This document shows positions 16,363-23,238 of a stretch of DNA of 64,000 nt, in pieces. The stretch is from Anaerolineae bacterium (lineage in GTDB: Bacteria; Chloroflexota; Anaerolineae; Caldilineales; Caldilineaceae): positions 1 through 64,000 of the forward strand of contig JAUIHI010000013.1 of the NCBI GenBank assembly GCA_030432295.1, read 5' to 3'. The notes under the pieces were generated by a model. The model worked only from the letters and a program-made list of their open reading frames with translations. It had not been told where the DNA came from and searched no databases. The translations under genes and the position numbers were made by a program. Within the stretch, counting starts at the first letter, position 1. Every line of letters begins with the position of its first letter.

Positions 16363-16773
16363 GGATACACCTCCTATGGGATCAGGACGCAAGTAGATTG
16401 TTTCGATAAAATCGAAGCATTCGGAACAATTGGGGATTGACAACTGGGAAAAAGATAATGGCCGGGAAGATAAAAACCGATTGGGCGGAAGGAAGGCGGC
16501 TTTGAAAACCGGTTTACAGTATCCGCTCAAACGGAAGAAATTTTCCGCGGCTGTGACTGTTTATACCACAAAATTGTGCAGAAGAAAAACGTTCTCTGCA
16601 ACTGTGGCAACTCAAGGGTACAATCAACCGGGTTTGACTGGTTCGCTCCCAGTGGAGAGTGGATGACCCGTTTTCTGTCTTCTTCCAGTAACCTTTTCCT
16701 CCCCATTTGGGTCTATCTGGCGAAGGGCCTTTCACAGCAGTACATCTATCGTACAGGTGTCACAGGAGTTCCG
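16363..16773. other. Divergent intergenic region with a palindrome
   Basis: This gap separates the minus-strand hydroxylase operon from the plus-strand sigma-ankyrin gene. A 6-3-6 palindrome (TTCGAT-AAA-ATCGAA) lies at 16402-16416, 40 bases upstream of the hydroxylase start, and is a candidate operator. TACAAT at 16619-16624 could be a -10 box for the sigma-ankyrin gene, but no good -35 accompanies it. I see no gene here. Confidence 0.5.
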
Positions 16774-19005
16774 ATGTTCGATCTGCCCGCCACTGTAGCC
16801 GACGCCCAAACGGGAAACGACGAGGCATTTGCCCGTCTCGTCTCCCACTTCCAGGATATGGCCTACGCCTGGGCCTATGGACTGACCAGCGATTTCCACC
16901 TGGCCCAGGATGTAGCCCAGGAAGCCTTTCTGGATGCCTGGCTGCTTCTGCCCCAATTGCGGGAGGCCGCCGCTTTCCCCGGCTGGCTGCGACGGATTGT
17001 CGCCAAGCACGCGGACAGGGAGACCCGGCGCAAGCGCCCCGTCTTTCTGCCTGTGGATGCTGCCGACGATCTGCCCTCGGCCCAACCGCAACCGGAGGCG
17101 CTGGTAGAGGCCGCAGAGATCCAGATGTGGGTACAGACGGCTGTAGATGCGCTGCCCGATCACCAGCGCACCGCCACCGCCCTCTTTTATCTGGACGGCT
17201 ATAGCCAACGGGAGATCGCCGACTTTCTGGAACTGCCTGTGTCCACCATCAAAAAGCGGCTGCACGACGCCCGCAATGGACTCAAACGGAGGATTGACCC
17301 AATGACTCGACAGGAATTGCAGACCCACCGCCCATCCCAGACCGACGAATTTGCCGACCGCATACAGTTTTTCATCGCCCTGCGCACCCACAATCTGCGC
17401 CGGATCAAAGAGCTAATCGAGAAAAACCCGGCCCTGCTGGAAGTACGCACCGAATGGGCTGTGGCCTCGGAGGGCTACTTCTGGCCCCTGAATGCAACCG
17501 CCCTGCACTGGGCCGCGGCCACGGGCGATCTGGCTCTACTCACCTTTTTGCTGGACGCGGGCGCAGAGCGCAATCCCGCGGACCGGGGGGGAGAGACGCC
17601 CCTGCATATGGCCGTGCGGATGGGCGAGAGCGGCGCGGTGCGGCGTCTGCTGGACGGCGGCCCCAATGGCGGCGCGGACGTGAACGCGTCCACAAAGAAC
17701 GGGATGACACCCCTGCATCACGCGGCTTTGAAGGCAAAACCGTCAATGGTGGAACTGCTGGTGGCCCACGGCGCGCAGGTCGATAGCCGGGACAGCGCAG
17801 GACGCAGCCCAGCCGATTGGGCGGCGCTCAAAGGCCGGGGAGAGATTGTCGATCTGCTGGCGGGCTACGGGGCAGAAGACCCCAAGACCGCGCCGATTGC
17901 CCCCTATCAGGTGAGCCGTGCCCAGCCCTCCACCCGCACAGTACCCGTCGGCCCGCAAGTCCTGGGCCGCATTCTGAACGCAGAGGGTCTGCCCCTGGAC
18001 AAAGCCGGGGCTTTTGACCCGGCCCAGGCAGCAGCCATCCACCGGCCAGCGTCCGCGGTCCGCCCACCCTTCTTGGAGACGGGCATCAAAATCATCGATC
18101 TGCTCTGTCCGCTGGTGCGGGGCGGCCACAACGGACTTTTTACACCCCTGGCCGGTGTGGGGCGGATGGTGGTGATGAGCCAGTTGATCGACAGCATTGC
18201 CAGCCTGCACGACGGGCGGGTGGTCTACGCCGGCCTGCAACACGGCCCGTATACGCTGGACGGTCTGCTCCGGTCCTGGCGGGGCGAGTGTGGCGTGGCT
18301 GCCGAGGCGCTGGAAAATAAGCTGACGCTAGTTTGTGGCGAGCTGGACGACCCGGTGGCAACCAAACAGCAGGTGGTGGAGACCGCCCTGACTATCGGCG
18401 AGGAGTTTCGTCGGGCCGGTCACGAAGTGCTACTGCTGGTGGAGACACGGCTGGCTCTGACCGATGGTGTGCTGCCCTATCTGCGGGCCAATGCGGTGGC
18501 TACCCCGGACGCTGCCATTACATTCCTCTATTGCGGCGACGAGAGCGCAGGCGCAGAACCGGCAGCTTTAGCCGATCTGGACGCAGTGATCACCTTCAAT
18601 CGGGAGCGGGCGGTGGCCGGTCTCTGGCCTGCCATCGACCCATTGGGTTCTCGCTCGAAGCTGCTGGCCCATCCGTTGCTGGATGCCAGCCATGGCCAGG
18701 TGGCGGCAGAGGTGGCCCGCCATTTTCGCCGCTACGAGGGGCTGCATTCGATGATAGAGAGCAAAGGTCTGGACGGTCTCTTCTATCTGGACGAGCGGGC
18801 CGCGGACGAAAAGATTGCCATTCGTGCCCGTCGCCTGCATCGCTATCTGACCCAGCCCTTCCCCGGTCTGGAAACCTTCACCGGACAGTTGGGGGCCTAT
18901 GTCCCTGCGGCTGAGACAGTGGCGACCTGTCGGGCGATTTTGGATGGAATGTATGACGAAGTGGAGGAGAGCGAGTTTTTGTTCGTGACGAGTTTTGGGA
19001 AATAA
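16774..19005 (+). CDS. Fusion of ECF sigma factor, ankyrin repeats and a degenerate F1-ATPase beta-like domain
   Basis: The 743-residue product has three parts. Residues 1-175 hold ECF sigma regions 2 (HLAQDVAQEAFLDAW) and 4 (DALPDHQRTATALFY, then YSQREIADFLELPVSTIKK). Residues about 195-370 hold ankyrin repeats (NATALHWAAATGDLALLTFL, GETPLHMAVR, GMTPLHHAAL). Residues about 390-743 align with the C-terminal three quarters of ATP synthase beta: VGPQVLGRILNAEGLPLD, FLETGIKIIDLL, then IDPLGSRSKLL and YLTQPFPGLETFTGQLGAYV. The P-loop is ruined (AGVGRM where GVGKT is expected), the GER catalytic glutamate region reads LQHG, and Walker B reads LLLVETRLAL. It is therefore probably a non-hydrolysing pseudo-ATPase. 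ATG 16774 follows CAGGAG by five bases. I infer a sigma factor controlled by protein contacts. Confidence 0.9.
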   Translation: MFDLPATVADAQTGNDEAFARLVSHFQDMAYAWAYGLTSDFHLAQDVAQEAFLDAWLLLPQLREAAAFPGWLRRIVAKHADRETRRKRPVFLPVDAADDLPSAQPQPEALVEAAEIQMWVQTAVDALPDHQRTATALFYLDGYSQREIADFLELPVSTIKKRLHDARNGLKRRIDPMTRQELQTHRPSQTDEFADRIQFFIALRTHNLRRIKELIEKNPALLEVRTEWAVASEGYFWPLNATALHWAAATGDLALLTFLLDAGAERNPADRGGETPLHMAVRMGESGAVRRLLDGGPNGGADVNASTKNGMTPLHHAALKAKPSMVELLVAHGAQVDSRDSAGRSPADWAALKGRGEIVDLLAGYGAEDPKTAPIAPYQVSRAQPSTRTVPVGPQVLGRILNAEGLPLDKAGAFDPAQAAAIHRPASAVRPPFLETGIKIIDLLCPLVRGGHNGLFTPLAGVGRMVVMSQLIDSIASLHDGRVVYAGLQHGPYTLDGLLRSWRGECGVAAEALENKLTLVCGELDDPVATKQQVVETALTIGEEFRRAGHEVLLLVETRLALTDGVLPYLRANAVATPDAAITFLYCGDESAGAEPAALADLDAVITFNRERAVAGLWPAIDPLGSRSKLLAHPLLDASHGQVAAEVARHFRRYEGLHSMIESKGLDGLFYLDERAADEKIAIRARRLHRYLTQPFPGLETFTGQLGAYVPAAETVATCRAILDGMYDEVEESEFLFVTSFGK

Positions 19006-19110: not shown

Positions 19111-19830
19111 ATGCTTACCCGCAATGCAATCCCCCAACCCCACAGCGAGTATTTGCAGCACGCCGGGCTTTTTCGGGGTCTGGCGTTGTCTGTCCTGGAC
19201 GAGGTTGCCCAACTGGCCCGGCAACGTTCCAGCCAGAACGACGCTTTTTTCTTCCATCAGGGCGACCCGGCCACGACTCTATACGTCCTCATCCAGGGCC
19301 GGGTGCGCATTGTCCAGGTGACGCCGGAGGGCCAGCAGGTGATTCTGCGTATCATCAGTCCCGGCGAGATGTTCGGCGGGATCGCCGCGCTGGGCGAGGC
19401 CAGCTATCCAGCCTCGGCCCAGGCGCTGGAAGCCAGTGTCGCGCTGGCCTGGGACGGCGAAACAGTCGCCCGGCTGATGGAAGAATATCCCCGCATTGCG
19501 CTCAACGCCCTGCGTCTGCTGGCTGGCCGCTACCAGGAAATGCAGGACCGCTACCGGGAATTGGCCACGGAACGGGTCGAACGGCGCGTGGCCCGCGCCC
19601 TGCTCCGTCTGCTGCGCCAGACCGGACGCAAAGTGGAAAACGGCGTGCTGATCGATTTCCCCCTTTCCCGGGAGGACCTGGCCGAATTGACCGGCACAAC
19701 CCTCTACACCGTCAGTCGGATTCTTAGCGGGTGGGAAAAAGCCGGGCTGATCGAGACTGGCCGCCAGCGGGTACTCATCCGCATCCCCCACAAATTGGTC
19801 GTCATCGCCGAGGACCTGCCGCCCGGTTAG
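19111..19830 (+). CDS. Crp/Fnr family transcriptional regulator
   Basis: The 239-residue product has an N-terminal cyclic-nucleotide-binding-type beta barrel ([34 protein letters not shown]), a long dimerisation helix, and a C-terminal winged helix ([20 protein letters not shown]). No N-terminal Cys cluster is present, so it is not an oxygen-sensing FNR with an iron-sulfur cluster. In the recognition helix the position of Crp Glu181 is Tyr, while the Arg equivalent to Arg185 is kept, suggesting altered DNA specificity. Two identical-type palindromes just downstream (19871 and 20798) are its likely targets. The ligand is unknown. Confidence 0.9.
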
Positions 19831-19870
19831 CCCGCCGACACCCGATAACCGTCACTTTTCGTTCCCTCTC

Positions 19871-19913
19871 TTTGCGCTGGCACAAAGACGGCGCGCCCAC
19901 TTCTCCCTATACT
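19871..19913 (+). promoter_or_regulatory. Palindromic operator and -10 box of the flavodoxin gene
   Basis: The palindrome TTTGCGCTGGCACAAA occupies 19871-19886 and is followed by GACGGC. TATACT lies at 19908-19913. The palindrome centre is 32 bases from the centre of the -10 box, placing it near -41.5 relative to a normal start, the class II activator position used by Crp/Fnr proteins. The same arrangement recurs at 20798. Confidence 0.75.
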
Positions 19914-19994
19914 TCAGAGGCAATGAGGACGTTTCCCCGCTTTCGGAAGGGGGCAGAACGACTCAAACGAATCACTGGATGAAGGAGAATCAAA

Positions 19995-20537
19995 ATGTCA
20001 GCGACAATTGGACTTTTTTATGGCAGCACAAATGGTGCGGGGGCCGTGGCGGGGGAGCTGATCAAAGCCACCATCGAAAAGACGGGTTTGGCTACGGTGG
20101 ACCTGCACGATGTGGGCTATACAAATCTCAAAGAGATGGAGCGCTACAGCTATCTGATCCTGGGCGTCTCCACCTGGAATATCGGCCTGTTGCAGGACGA
20201 TTGGGCGGACAAATTCGACGAATTGGATGAGATTGGCCTGGCCGGGAAACCGGTGGCGCTCTACGGCATGGGCGATCAGTACGGCTATCCCGACAGTTAT
20301 CTGGACGCGATGGAGACGCTGGGGGCGAAGGTGATGGAGCGTGGCGGCGAACCGGCGGGCTTCTGGCTGGTGGACGACAGCTACGAATTTGAGTATTCCC
20401 GGGCGGTGATCGACGACGTATTTATCGGCTTGGCCCTGGACGACGACAACCAGAGCGATCTCACCGAACAGCGGGTGCAGGCGTGGGCGGAGATTGTGTT
20501 GGAGGATTTTGGCCTAGCGGTGCCTGTCCCGGCCTGA
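19995..20537 (+). CDS. Flavodoxin (long-chain type)
   Basis: Flavodoxins are small FMN proteins that replace ferredoxin as electron carriers. The 180-residue product begins with the FMN-phosphate loop FYGSTNGAGAVAGEL and has the aromatic FMN-flanking regions STWNIGLLQDDW and GDQYGYPDSYLDAM. Its length fits the long-chain FldA/NifF type. AAGGAG precedes ATG 19995. It is first behind the Crp/Fnr-type operator at 19871, so expression probably depends on that regulator, perhaps under low oxygen. Confidence 0.93.
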   Translation: MSATIGLFYGSTNGAGAVAGELIKATIEKTGLATVDLHDVGYTNLKEMERYSYLILGVSTWNIGLLQDDWADKFDELDEIGLAGKPVALYGMGDQYGYPDSYLDAMETLGAKVMERGGEPAGFWLVDDSYEFEYSRAVIDDVFIGLALDDDNQSDLTEQRVQAWAEIVLEDFGLAVPVPA

Positions 20538-20560
20538 GCAGATAGAAAGGGTGTGCGGGT

Positions 20561-20782
20561 ATGACTGAAACGATTATCACCGGCGATATGACTGTGGCGG
20601 AAACCCTGCAAAGTGTGCCCGACGCCCTCCGGCTCTTTCAGGCCCACGGCATCAATCCGATCACCGACTGCGGCCCGAACATCCATAGCCTGTGGCTGGA
20701 AGAAGCCCAAGACCGCTGCCAGATTAAAGGGTGGGAAGCGCTACTCGCCGATCTCAACAGGGCAGTCAGCGCAGAATTGTAA
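20561..20782 (+). CDS. Small DUF1858/ScdA-N-like protein
   Basis: The 73-residue product has the pattern of DUF1858 or ScdA N-terminal domains: an ITGDMTVAETLQSVPDAL start, a helix with FQAHGINP, then a Cys region (TDCGPN and DRCQI) and a C-terminal helix. The CxxC pair typical of DUF1858 is absent. Such small proteins accompany hemerythrin-type and nitrosative-stress genes. It lies 23 bases after flavodoxin and is probably in the same transcript. Family assignment is moderate and no activity is known. Confidence 0.7.
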   Translation: MTETIITGDMTVAETLQSVPDALRLFQAHGINPITDCGPNIHSLWLEEAQDRCQIKGWEALLADLNRAVSAEL

Positions 20783-20797
20783 TCCCATTTCGGGCTG

Positions 20798-20840
20798 TTT
20801 GCGCCAGCGCAAAGACGGCACGCGGCGTCGCCTGTATACT
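20798..20840 (+). promoter_or_regulatory. Second palindromic operator and -10 box, before the DUF1858 gene
   Basis: TTTGCGCCAGCGCAAA at 20798-20813 is a perfect palindrome, again followed by GACGGC. TATACT lies at 20835-20840. The centre-to-centre distance is 32 bases, identical to the operator at 19871. Transcription would start near 20847, which rules out an in-frame ATG at 20846 and supports the start at 20861. Confidence 0.78.
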
Positions 20841-20860
20841 GGGAAATGAAGGAGGAACTG

Positions 20861-21076
20861 ATGGAGCATCTGATTCAAGCCGAACTTACTGTGGCCGAAA
20901 CTTTGGAGCGCTGGCCGCAAACAATTCCCGTCTTTCTGCGCCGGCGAATGGCTTGCGTAGGCTGCGCCATCACCCCCTTCGAGACTTTGGCCGAAGCGGC
21001 TGTGATTTATAGCCTGGACCTGCCCCAGTTCCTACAGGAATTGCGTCAGGCCGTTCCACCCCAAGAAGCGAGTTGA
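20861..21076 (+). CDS. DUF1858 domain protein
   Basis: The 71-residue product matches the DUF1858 pattern: ELTVAETLERWPQTIPVFLRRRMACVGC in outline, with the CxxC pair (CVGC), followed by PFETLAEAAVIYSLDL. DUF1858 proteins often occur near hybrid-cluster, hemerythrin or nitrogen-oxide-stress genes and may bind metal through the Cys pair. GGAGG stands four to eight bases before ATG 20861. It has its own copy of the Crp/Fnr-type operator. Confidence 0.85.
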   Translation: MEHLIQAELTVAETLERWPQTIPVFLRRRMACVGCAITPFETLAEAAVIYSLDLPQFLQELRQAVPPQEAS

Positions 21077-21146
21077 TAAGAATCAGCCTGCCGGTCCCGT
21101 AAGTCTGTCGTGTCCGTCCAATAGATTCCTACAGGAGAGAAGTTGT

Positions 21147-21401
21147 ATGAGCCGCAGCAATGAAACAGTCGAAGCAGGCGTTGTGGATGTCCGTACTATC
21201 GCACCCCGGGACCGCCACCCGCTGATTTTTGACGCCTTTGAGAATTTGGCGCCCGGGGACGGATTTTATCTGGTCAACGACCACGACCCCAAGCCCCTCT
21301 ACTATCAGTTCCAGGCCGAACGTACAGGCCAGTTCACCTGGGAGTATGCGGAGCAAGGGCCGGAAATCTGGCGGGTACGCATCGGACGTGCCCTTGCCTG
21401 A
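21147..21401 (+). CDS. DUF2249 domain protein
   Basis: The 84-residue product shows the DUF2249 hallmarks VVDVRTIAPRDRHPLIFDAF, LVNDHDPKPLYYQF, and a WRVRIGR ending. The family is widespread in Fnr-regulated and denitrification-linked clusters, and its members resemble the TusA fold; the molecular role is not established. AGGAGAGAAG precedes the ATG. The start region has no copy of the TTTGCGC operator, so it probably continues the transcript from 20847. Confidence 0.88.
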   Translation: MSRSNETVEAGVVDVRTIAPRDRHPLIFDAFENLAPGDGFYLVNDHDPKPLYYQFQAERTGQFTWEYAEQGPEIWRVRIGRALA

Positions 21402-21568
21402 GTAGATGCAATCGCAAACGGAGTAAAACTATTCAGCCTATGACGAAAGGTCCCCGGCACTTTCTTTGGGAGCGAGTGGGTACGTCACAATTCAATCGTT
21501 GTGAAACGTGAAGTGCCGGGGACTTTTGCTTTCTGCCTGAGCAGATGCAATCACAAAAGGAGTAAACT
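21395..21568. repeat. Stem-loop element (GTCCCCGGCACTT family, copy 1) bracketed by a 35-bp direct repeat
   Basis: Bases 21395-21430 and 21534-21568 are direct repeats differing by three substitutions and one indel. Between them lies an inverted-repeat element (about 21446-21527) whose arms contain GTCCCCGGCACTT and its complement. The first direct repeat contains the DUF2249 stop; the second contains the ribosome-binding site of the cupin gene. Related elements occur at 39574 and 42091. Confidence 0.82.
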
Positions 21569-21570
21569 GT

Positions 21571-21930
21571 ATGTGGTCATTTCCCTTGACAGAGAACGTG
21601 GAATTTCACACCGAACACCCCAATTCCCAGCCGCTGCTCGTTGCCGATTGGGGCCGGGTACTGCGCTTCAGCCTGAATCCAGGCCAGACGATTCGTGAAC
21701 ACGAGACGCCCCACTCCCCCTTCTTCGCTGTCGTGCTGGAAGGCGAAGGGCTGTTTGCGGGTGAGGATGGCCAGGAGCAACGGGTCGGTCCCCAATCCCT
21801 GCTGATTTTCGCTCCCGGCGAGCGCCACACTGTGCGTGCCCTGGAACAGAAATTGGTCTTTGTGGGTTTCTTGCAGGGCGTGCCAGGTATGGAGCCGGGC
21901 AGCCTTTCCGGCGATATTGTGCGCCAGTAG
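21571..21930 (+). CDS. Cupin domain protein
   Basis: The 119-residue product is a single cupin barrel: RFSLNPGQTIREHETPHSPF carries the first motif with His ligands, and LIFAPGERHTV the second. Its metal and substrate are unknown; small cupins of this sort often act as sensors or modest hydrolases. AAGGAG precedes ATG 21571 and lies within a duplicated segment. It sits between DUF2249 and the NDH-2-like gene, suggesting a redox or stress setting. Confidence 0.85.
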   Translation: MWSFPLTENVEFHTEHPNSQPLLVADWGRVLRFSLNPGQTIREHETPHSPFFAVVLEGEGLFAGEDGQEQRVGPQSLLIFAPGERHTVRALEQKLVFVGFLQGVPGMEPGSLSGDIVRQ

Positions 21931-21957
21931 CGTAGCCAGAGAGCAGAGGGAGGTCGT

Positions 21958-23238
21958 ATGACAGAGAGACCGCGGGTTGTCATTGTCGGGGCAGGTTTTG
22001 CCGGACTGTGGGCCGCCCGCGGTCTGGCTGGTGCGCCAGTGCAGGTACTGCTGGTGGACCGCAACAACTTCCACACATTTCTCCCTCTGCTCTATCAGGT
22101 GGCGGCGGCTGAACTGGAACCGGAGGCCATCGCCTATCCGGTGCGCAGTATCCTGCGTACAATGCCCAATGTGGATTTCCTCTTGGCGGAAGTAGAGGGA
22201 CTCGATCTGGCCGGGCAGCAGATTCAGACATCCGCGGGTACGATTGCCTACGACTTTCTCATCCTGGCAACCGGCAGCACCAATCACTTTTTCGGTGTAC
22301 CCGGTGGGCAGGAACACGCCTTTCCCCTGAAAACAATGGCAGACGCGGTTGCTTTGCGCAGCCAAATACTCCACTGCTACGAACAGGCAGCCCACCAGAC
22401 CGACCCGGAACTACGACGCCAAGCGCTGACATTCACGATTGTGGGCGGCGGCCCCACGGGCGTCGAATTTGCCGGCGCGTTGGCCGAGCTGATCAACGGT
22501 CCCCTCCGCAAAGATTATCCCCATCTGAACAGACAGGACAGCCGCGTCGTCCTGCTGGAAGCCCAGAATGTACTGCTGCCGGGCCTGCCCCCGCGGCTGC
22601 AAACCTACGCCCAGGCCCGCCTGCAACGGATGGGCGTCGAGGTGCAACTGCAAGCGTCGGTGGAAGAGATCACAGACAGCGCCGTGCGTATTGCCGACGG
22701 GCTGACTATCCCCACACAGACGGTTGTCTGGACAGCCGGCGTGCAAGGGTTGCCAGAGGCCAGCGCGTGGGGGCTGCCCGTCGTTCGGGGCAGACGGGTG
22801 GCCGTGCTGCCCACACTTCAGTCGCCAGAGCATCCCAACGTCTACGTGCTTGGAGACCTGGCGAGTCTGGAACAGGCGGGCCGGGCCTTGCCGATGGTGG
22901 CCTCTGTCGCCACCCAGCAGGGCAAAGCCGCCGCCCAGAATATCCTGCGCCAGCTACGGGACGAGCCGCCGCTGCCCTTTCGCTATCAGGACAAAGGGTC
23001 GATGGTGACAATTGGCCGCAACGCCGCGGTCGCCCACGTCTTTGGCCGCAGTTTCACTGGCTTTCCCGCCTGGGTGCTTTGGCTCGGTGTGCATCTGCTC
23101 AATCTGATTGGCTTCCGCAACCGGCTGCTGGTGATGCTCAACTGGGCCTGGGACTATTTTTTCTTCGAGCGTGCCGTTCGCCTGATTTCACCAAGGCTTT
23201 GTGACGGGAACTATTTTCCATCCACTTTCTTCGTTTGA
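21958..23238 (+). CDS. NAD(P)/FAD-dependent oxidoreductase, type II NADH dehydrogenase-like
   Basis: The 426-residue flavoprotein has an FAD-binding Rossmann motif at the N-terminus ([17 protein letters not shown]), the NDH-2-typical [17 protein letters not shown], the NAD-binding motif [16 protein letters not shown], and a late FAD motif ([15 protein letters not shown]). The C-terminal 70 residues are hydrophobic and aromatic, as in membrane-associated NDH-2 enzymes. It would oxidise NADH and reduce quinone without pumping protons. It is 27 bases downstream of the cupin gene and likely in the same operon. Confidence 0.92.

Follow-up and report, generated by a model that had tools for sequence, protein, structure and literature searches.

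What can a sigma factor do with a dismantled ATP synthase subunit? The question is raised by a single gene in the window (the whole 64,000-nucleotide stretch of Anaerolineae DNA analysed here), which joins an ECF sigma factor to ankyrin repeats and a relative of F1-ATPase beta. The gene (16774..19005; all gene and promoter features given below lie on the plus strand) is an intact single frame of 743 aa, with an ATG at 16774 that matches the start of the nearest homologue and a stop ending at 19005. A longer GTG frame from 16576, which spans the promoter, is not likely to mark the start.

HMM searches with Pfam and NCBIfam bore out the order sigma, ankyrin and F1-beta-like domain in one frame, as read from the letters in the earlier note. 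Sigma region 2 (aa 22-88, 16837..17037; PF04542 Sigma70_r2, E=2.2e-9) and region 4 (aa 118-167, 17125..17274; PF08281 Sigma70_r4_2, E=3.3e-11) were both above the Pfam cut-off, regions 1.1 and 3 were absent, and the NCBIfam model for sigma70-ECF (TIGR02937) matched at E=2.7e-21 with 75.9 bits versus a cut-off of 42.9. The ankyrin repeat region covers aa ~191-373 (17344..17892) based on Pfam Ank_2 (E=4.6e-24) and on helix pairs in the full-length model, with several Pfam ankyrin models falling at aa ~236-368. A linker follows (17926..18063) which, in the NCBIfam atpD alignment, holds a remnant of F1 beta (VPVGPQVLGRILNAEGLPLDKAG) from directly after the lost beta barrel; this remnant is also seen in G005, G366, G505 and G689. 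The pseudo-F1-beta domain proper (aa 431-743, 18064..19002) comprises the nucleotide-binding fold and the C-terminal helices. Pfam ATP-synt_ab covers aa 437-557 of the 743-aa protein, and the NCBIfam atpD model (TIGR01039, E=1.5e-59) matches in two stretches, aa 388-558 and about 584-740. Pfam gave ankyrin and ATP-synt_ab as the only extension domains, with no SnoaL, TPR or WD40 extension of the ECF41, ECF42 or ECF57 types. A complete, normal atpD with ~39% identity to the beta-like domain lies elsewhere in the genome, on another contig (G000:C20).

When overlaid on F1 beta, the predicted structure of the C-terminal part showed the F1-beta fold. The prediction, made from 12 family sequences alone (pLDDT 80, pTM 0.81), matched F1 beta with a Z of about 36 across ~340 residues and a TM of up to 0.83. 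The match spans F1 beta from residue ~80 to the C-terminus, the N-terminal (crown) beta barrel being absent. The full-length model reached a pTM of only 0.62 and does not fix the arrangement of the domains. In a PDB profile search, F1 beta was matched at 8e-86 versus 4.5e-23 for type III export ATPases, and Rho was not among the 60 matches listed. By these profiles the pseudo-beta domain is closer to F1 beta than to Rho or the export ATPases (FliI/SctN), and neither a Rho-like domain nor the Rho-type partners proposed earlier found support.

A search for the same architecture in Chloroflexota genomes yielded nine fused forms besides that of the window (G005, G027, G329, G361, G366, G750, G756, G763 and G768) and three split pairs. 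The nearest relative, from the Caldilineaceae MAG ACE_CHL8 (G005, locus L012), is 84% identical to the window protein, compared with 45% for the form in G027. The form in G750 comes from the Anaerolineae MAG 5_bin.52 (L013), that in G768 holds a run of N and that in G329 is cut by a contig end. In three genomes of other lineages (G505 and G689 from one class and G690 from another), the sigma-ankyrin and beta-like parts are encoded by separate consecutive genes, overlapping by 4 nt in G505 and 1 nt in G690 and separated by 65 nt in G689. These numbers are a lower bound on prevalence, with two candidates per genome scored at E below 1e-75 and phyla beyond Chloroflexota searched by exact peptide patterns only. 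The distribution is patchy, with the fusion present in 2 of the 7 genomes of the genus. Since nine more genomes share the architecture, it is not a product of chance, and a frameshift or assembly fusion is ruled out. The earlier note had taken homologues with separate genes as a sign of an assembly frameshift. Such homologues do exist, but as ordered neighbours, two of them overlapping by 1-4 nt, which argues for partnership rather than assembly error. The fused and ordered split forms are a Rosetta-stone pair, whose parts belong together.

The C-terminal extension is under purifying selection. Between the window gene and that of G005, dN/dS was 0.15 overall, with 0.17 for sigma region 2, 0.13 for region 4, 0.12 for the ankyrins, 0.135 for the beta-like domain and, as the highest value, 0.28 for the linker; a decaying pseudogene is rejected by these values. 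In a tree of the 12 beta-like domains and 69 bacterial atpD sequences, the beta-like domains formed a clade of their own (SH-aLRT 99) that falls outside the atpD clade, with long branches and an unsure placement among atpD. The nine fused domains were nested within this clade (99), with the three split ones outside, a topology that makes the split genes look ancestral; split, then fused, would be the simplest order.

We compared the old active site in the 12 family domains (nine fused, three split) with 62 atpD sequences. In the window, the P-loop GGAGVGKT has become TPLAGVGRM (aa 457-465, 18142..18168), the former GER loop reads LQHG (aa 488-491, 18235..18246) with QHG at 489-491 in place of GER, and the former Walker B reads VLLLVET (aa 552-558, 18427..18447) with Asp256 replaced by Glu557. 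Most of the segment between Walker B and VPADD is deleted. The catalytic positions had been described as lost, which holds for GVGRM and QHG, but the change from Asp256 to Glu557 is conservative and the word was slightly strong there. Across the family, both Thr163 of the P-loop (Ser in G027) and Arg189 are lost in 12/12 domains, and Lys162 is retained only in the three split forms and G329. Glu188 is kept in the split forms and gone from all fused forms, and Asp256 is kept in the split forms and mostly replaced in the fused ones, four of nine of which carry Asp at the P-loop Thr position. The position of the adenine-stacking Tyr345 holds Tyr or Trp in 11/12 domains, and that of F424 is aromatic in 10/12, the aromatic having gone in G366 and G329. 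The share of atpD-invariant positions retained in the GER loop was 0.00 in fused versus 0.40 in split forms, compared to 0.73 and 0.78, respectively, in the C-terminal helices. The fused forms also have derived residues in common (P-loop [TS]P, G491, W502, G593, P596, F608 and W618), which indicates that the old active site was rebuilt and did not decay at random. Because the catalytic residues are lost, these alignments make ATP hydrolysis by the pseudo-F1-beta very unlikely; nucleotide binding appears possible in the split forms and doubtful in the fused ones.

Upstream of the gene lies a conserved ECF-type promoter, GTAACC-N15-GGGTCT (16688..16714), which is presumably autoregulatory. The motif GTAACC-N15-GGG[AT]CT or a close variant, at constant spacing, precedes 12/12 members with a readable upstream region, and an AAC-type -35 with a short -10, an ECF feature, stands before the sigma gene in all 12. 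A stricter form (GTAACCTT-N13-GGG[AT]CT) was found exactly before the sigma gene in 9/11 member genomes and had no exact copy anywhere in 14 non-member genomes. Using the looser form, the sigma's own site was the sole exact match in the window's genome (G000) and in G361, G366, G750, G763, G505 and G690, with several extra sites in G689. The module is probably autoregulated, because in most member genomes the only exact copy of the promoter precedes its own gene, a pattern that suggests that the promoter is read by its own sigma. A wider regulon was rejected at the level of exact promoter searches, which would miss weaker targets with degenerate promoters: one-mismatch matches to the stricter form elsewhere were no commoner than with a reversed-pattern control. 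The upstream comparison also revealed a near-palindrome directly after the -10 (GAAGGGCCTTTC, 16722..16733), a possible operator. It takes the form of a perfect palindrome (GAAGGCCTTC) in G005, G027, G361 and G756 and is imperfect in the window and G763. The combination of -10 and palindrome occurs in 3/396 genomes of the class, two of the three being family members. GAAGGCCTTC also stands before a GNAT-type sister sigma in G604, a genome of another class; besides the window, the loci with the palindrome are L012, L109, L101, L146 and L152.

No anti-sigma gene was recognised adjoining the window gene; an adjacent cognate anti-sigma gene is no requirement for an ECF, and many accepted ones lack it. 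Its neighbours are a molybdopterin dehydrogenase operon, a Crp/Fnr regulator, flavodoxin and NDH-2. Downstream, 19111-23238 holds the Crp/Fnr regulator, flavodoxin, DUF2249, cupin and NDH-2 genes. In G005, flavodoxin, DUF2249, cupin and NDH-2 instead lie upstream of the sigma, on its other side, which indicates that the locus has been rearranged. Between the DUF2249 and cupin genes of the window is a strong hairpin (21395-21575; folding z -5.1) built on inverted AAAGTCCCCGGCACTT, with a direct repeat of ~35 bp at its flanks and similar ~100-bp copies at dozens of sites in sister genomes. It had no Rfam match and, from its sequence, looks like a mobile element of the REP/MITE type.

Sister sigmas carry a range of other partners. 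Their C-terminal modules include a minimal nucleotidyltransferase (G010 and G016), a GNAT/SCP2-like module with a weak score (G025, G604 and G666) and ankyrins alone (G690:C18). Elsewhere the partner is a separate gene. A sigma with ankyrins is overlapped by a TPR gene in G237, an APH-type kinase gene overlaps the sigma gene in G665, and G617 has HEAT and GNAT genes. In the G361 family, the gene of an FtsH-type protease, identified from its translation, follows the sigma after 40-135 bp. At L126, L127, L133, L135, L136 and L138, an ftsH-type gene is preceded by a short ECF sigma of this clade, and a GTCACC-N15-GGCTCT promoter lies upstream of several ftsH-linked sigmas and also at L130 and L131. 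Same-clade sigmas fused to the GNAT/SCP2-like module or the nucleotidyltransferase occur at L149, L150, L151, L152 and L154, and from sequence these fusions look like enzyme-bearing sigma factors. G690 has two clade members (L105 and L106), one bearing just ankyrins and the other accompanied by a separate gene for the beta-like part in addition to its ankyrins. Most sister sigmas have the same promoter type, usually with a -10 of GGC[AT]CT, and in a sigma tree (189 columns, with weak deep branches) the beta-associated sigmas did not form one clade. With one sigma type, many partners and one self promoter, the wider clade resembles a general blueprint for stress genes that switch themselves.

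The best reading of these results is a self-activating sigma module in which the ankyrin/pseudo-F1-beta half is a dedicated, non-hydrolysing control or output part. The sigma would recognise GTAACC-N15-GGG[AT]CT and drive mainly its own gene, as the conservation and genome-wide uniqueness of the promoter suggest. The tree and the split forms point to an atpD copy that was duplicated and stripped to become a separate downstream gene, and that was later fused to a sigma-ankyrin protein in Anaerolineae lineages; having lost its catalytic residues, the domain would no longer hydrolyse ATP. The ankyrin and pseudo-beta half would be the sigma's dedicated partner, and a signal received by the module would flip a positive-feedback loop. 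By analogy with ECF41 and ECF42 (PMC8999054), we favor, at about even odds, a control role in which this half binds a protein or ligand and so holds off or releases the sigma, standing in for an anti-sigma factor. Since hardly any other target promoter was seen, this half may contribute to the output as well; given that sister partners include enzymes (FtsH, APH and GNAT), an output role fits at least as well as control. Rather unlikely, in our judgement, is that the atpD duplicate became a built-in sigma regulator through which energy state, F1 assembly or an F1-binding inhibitor sets transcription in a self-amplifying one-gene circuit.

The earlier note had proposed a self-contained regulator that senses adenylates. 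The fusion, the conserved promoter of its own and the lack of an anti-sigma gene next door favor the first part of that proposal, but the second fared worse. An adenylate or energy-charge sensor, in which pseudo-F1-beta would bind but not hydrolyse ATP/ADP and its bound state would set sigma activity, would fit the Lys162, Glu188 and Asp256 equivalents of the split forms, the Tyr or Trp at the Tyr345 position (11/12), the aromatic residue at that of F424 (10/12) and the presence of NDH-2 and a Crp/Fnr regulator among the genome neighbours. However, Thr163 (one Ser aside) and Arg189 are missing from 12/12 domains, the fused forms have lost the GER Glu, the P-loop Lys (except in G329) and mostly the Walker B Asp, 4/9 have an Asp in the P-loop, and G366 and G329 lack the F424 aromatic, leaving a sensor of this kind unlikely. 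The earlier note's further idea, that the ankyrins mask the sigma part, found no support.

We give a similarly low probability to the C-terminal half being purely an output, with the sigma only switching on its own operon and the ankyrin/pseudo-beta part acting elsewhere, for example as a decoy for F1-ATPase or an F1 inhibitor or as an assembly competitor. The sole strong promoter copy is indeed its own, and sister sigmas accompany effector-like enzymes (FtsH, APH and GNAT), but a fused effector would stay tied to RNA polymerase. In addition, the beta barrel and the post-Walker-B segment, both used in F1 assembly, are gone, making incorporation into the F1 hexamer unlikely, and the equivalent of the aurovertin-site Arg is not conserved across the family, which speaks against an aurovertin-type decoy. 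A relic, in which a decaying atpD copy became fused by accident and only the sigma part is used, would suit the very patchy distribution (2/7 genomes of the genus) and the long branches. It is already contradicted by a dN/dS in the beta-like domain (0.135) equal to that of the sigma part, as well as by the conserved derived residues and the recurrence across several families, and is highly improbable.

To our knowledge, pseudoenzymes derived from a core ATP-synthase subunit are rare. The series from split to fused forms, with an active site going from partly to fully degraded, is a natural one for the question of how an ATPase becomes a regulator, and with its conserved promoter the sigma can be tested directly. 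In the literature searched, which left out the 2021 ECF reclassification, no paper was found on an ECF-ankyrin or pseudo-F1-beta regulator, nor any description of a pseudo-F1-beta as a sigma-factor partner. Within that literature, an ECF with a C-terminal extension is a known kind, but no instance turned up of the ankyrin and pseudo-F1-beta extension, of its split ancestor or of the single-target-like promoter, all of which appear new.

Extensions take the place of anti-sigma factors in ECF41, ECF42, ECF57 and ECF238 (PMC8999054). Like ECFs with a C-terminal extension (PMC8999054), the window protein has a sigma2-sigma4 core, no adjacent anti-sigma and a soluble extension that probably controls the sigma; unlike them, its extension consists of ankyrins and pseudo-F1-beta and is about 550 residues long, and the ECF review mentions neither as an extension (PMC8999054). 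As in sigma/anti-sigma gene pairs, the split partner gene directly follows the sigma gene (with overlaps of 4 nt in G505 and 1 nt in G690), but the partner is a pseudo-F1-beta in which no transmembrane or zinc anti-sigma domain was found. The domain shares with F1-ATPase beta (atpD) its fold, its C-terminal helices and clear homology (8e-86), yet has no beta barrel, GKT, GER or Walker B Asp, lies outside the atp operon and belongs to a separate clade. The Mycoplasma F1-like beta paralogues (MSC_0618 and MMOB1670/G1-ATPase; NCBIfam, PDB) are likewise F1 beta paralogues with a new use, but those are subunits of ATPase complexes, whereas the window domain has degenerated and is linked to a sigma factor.
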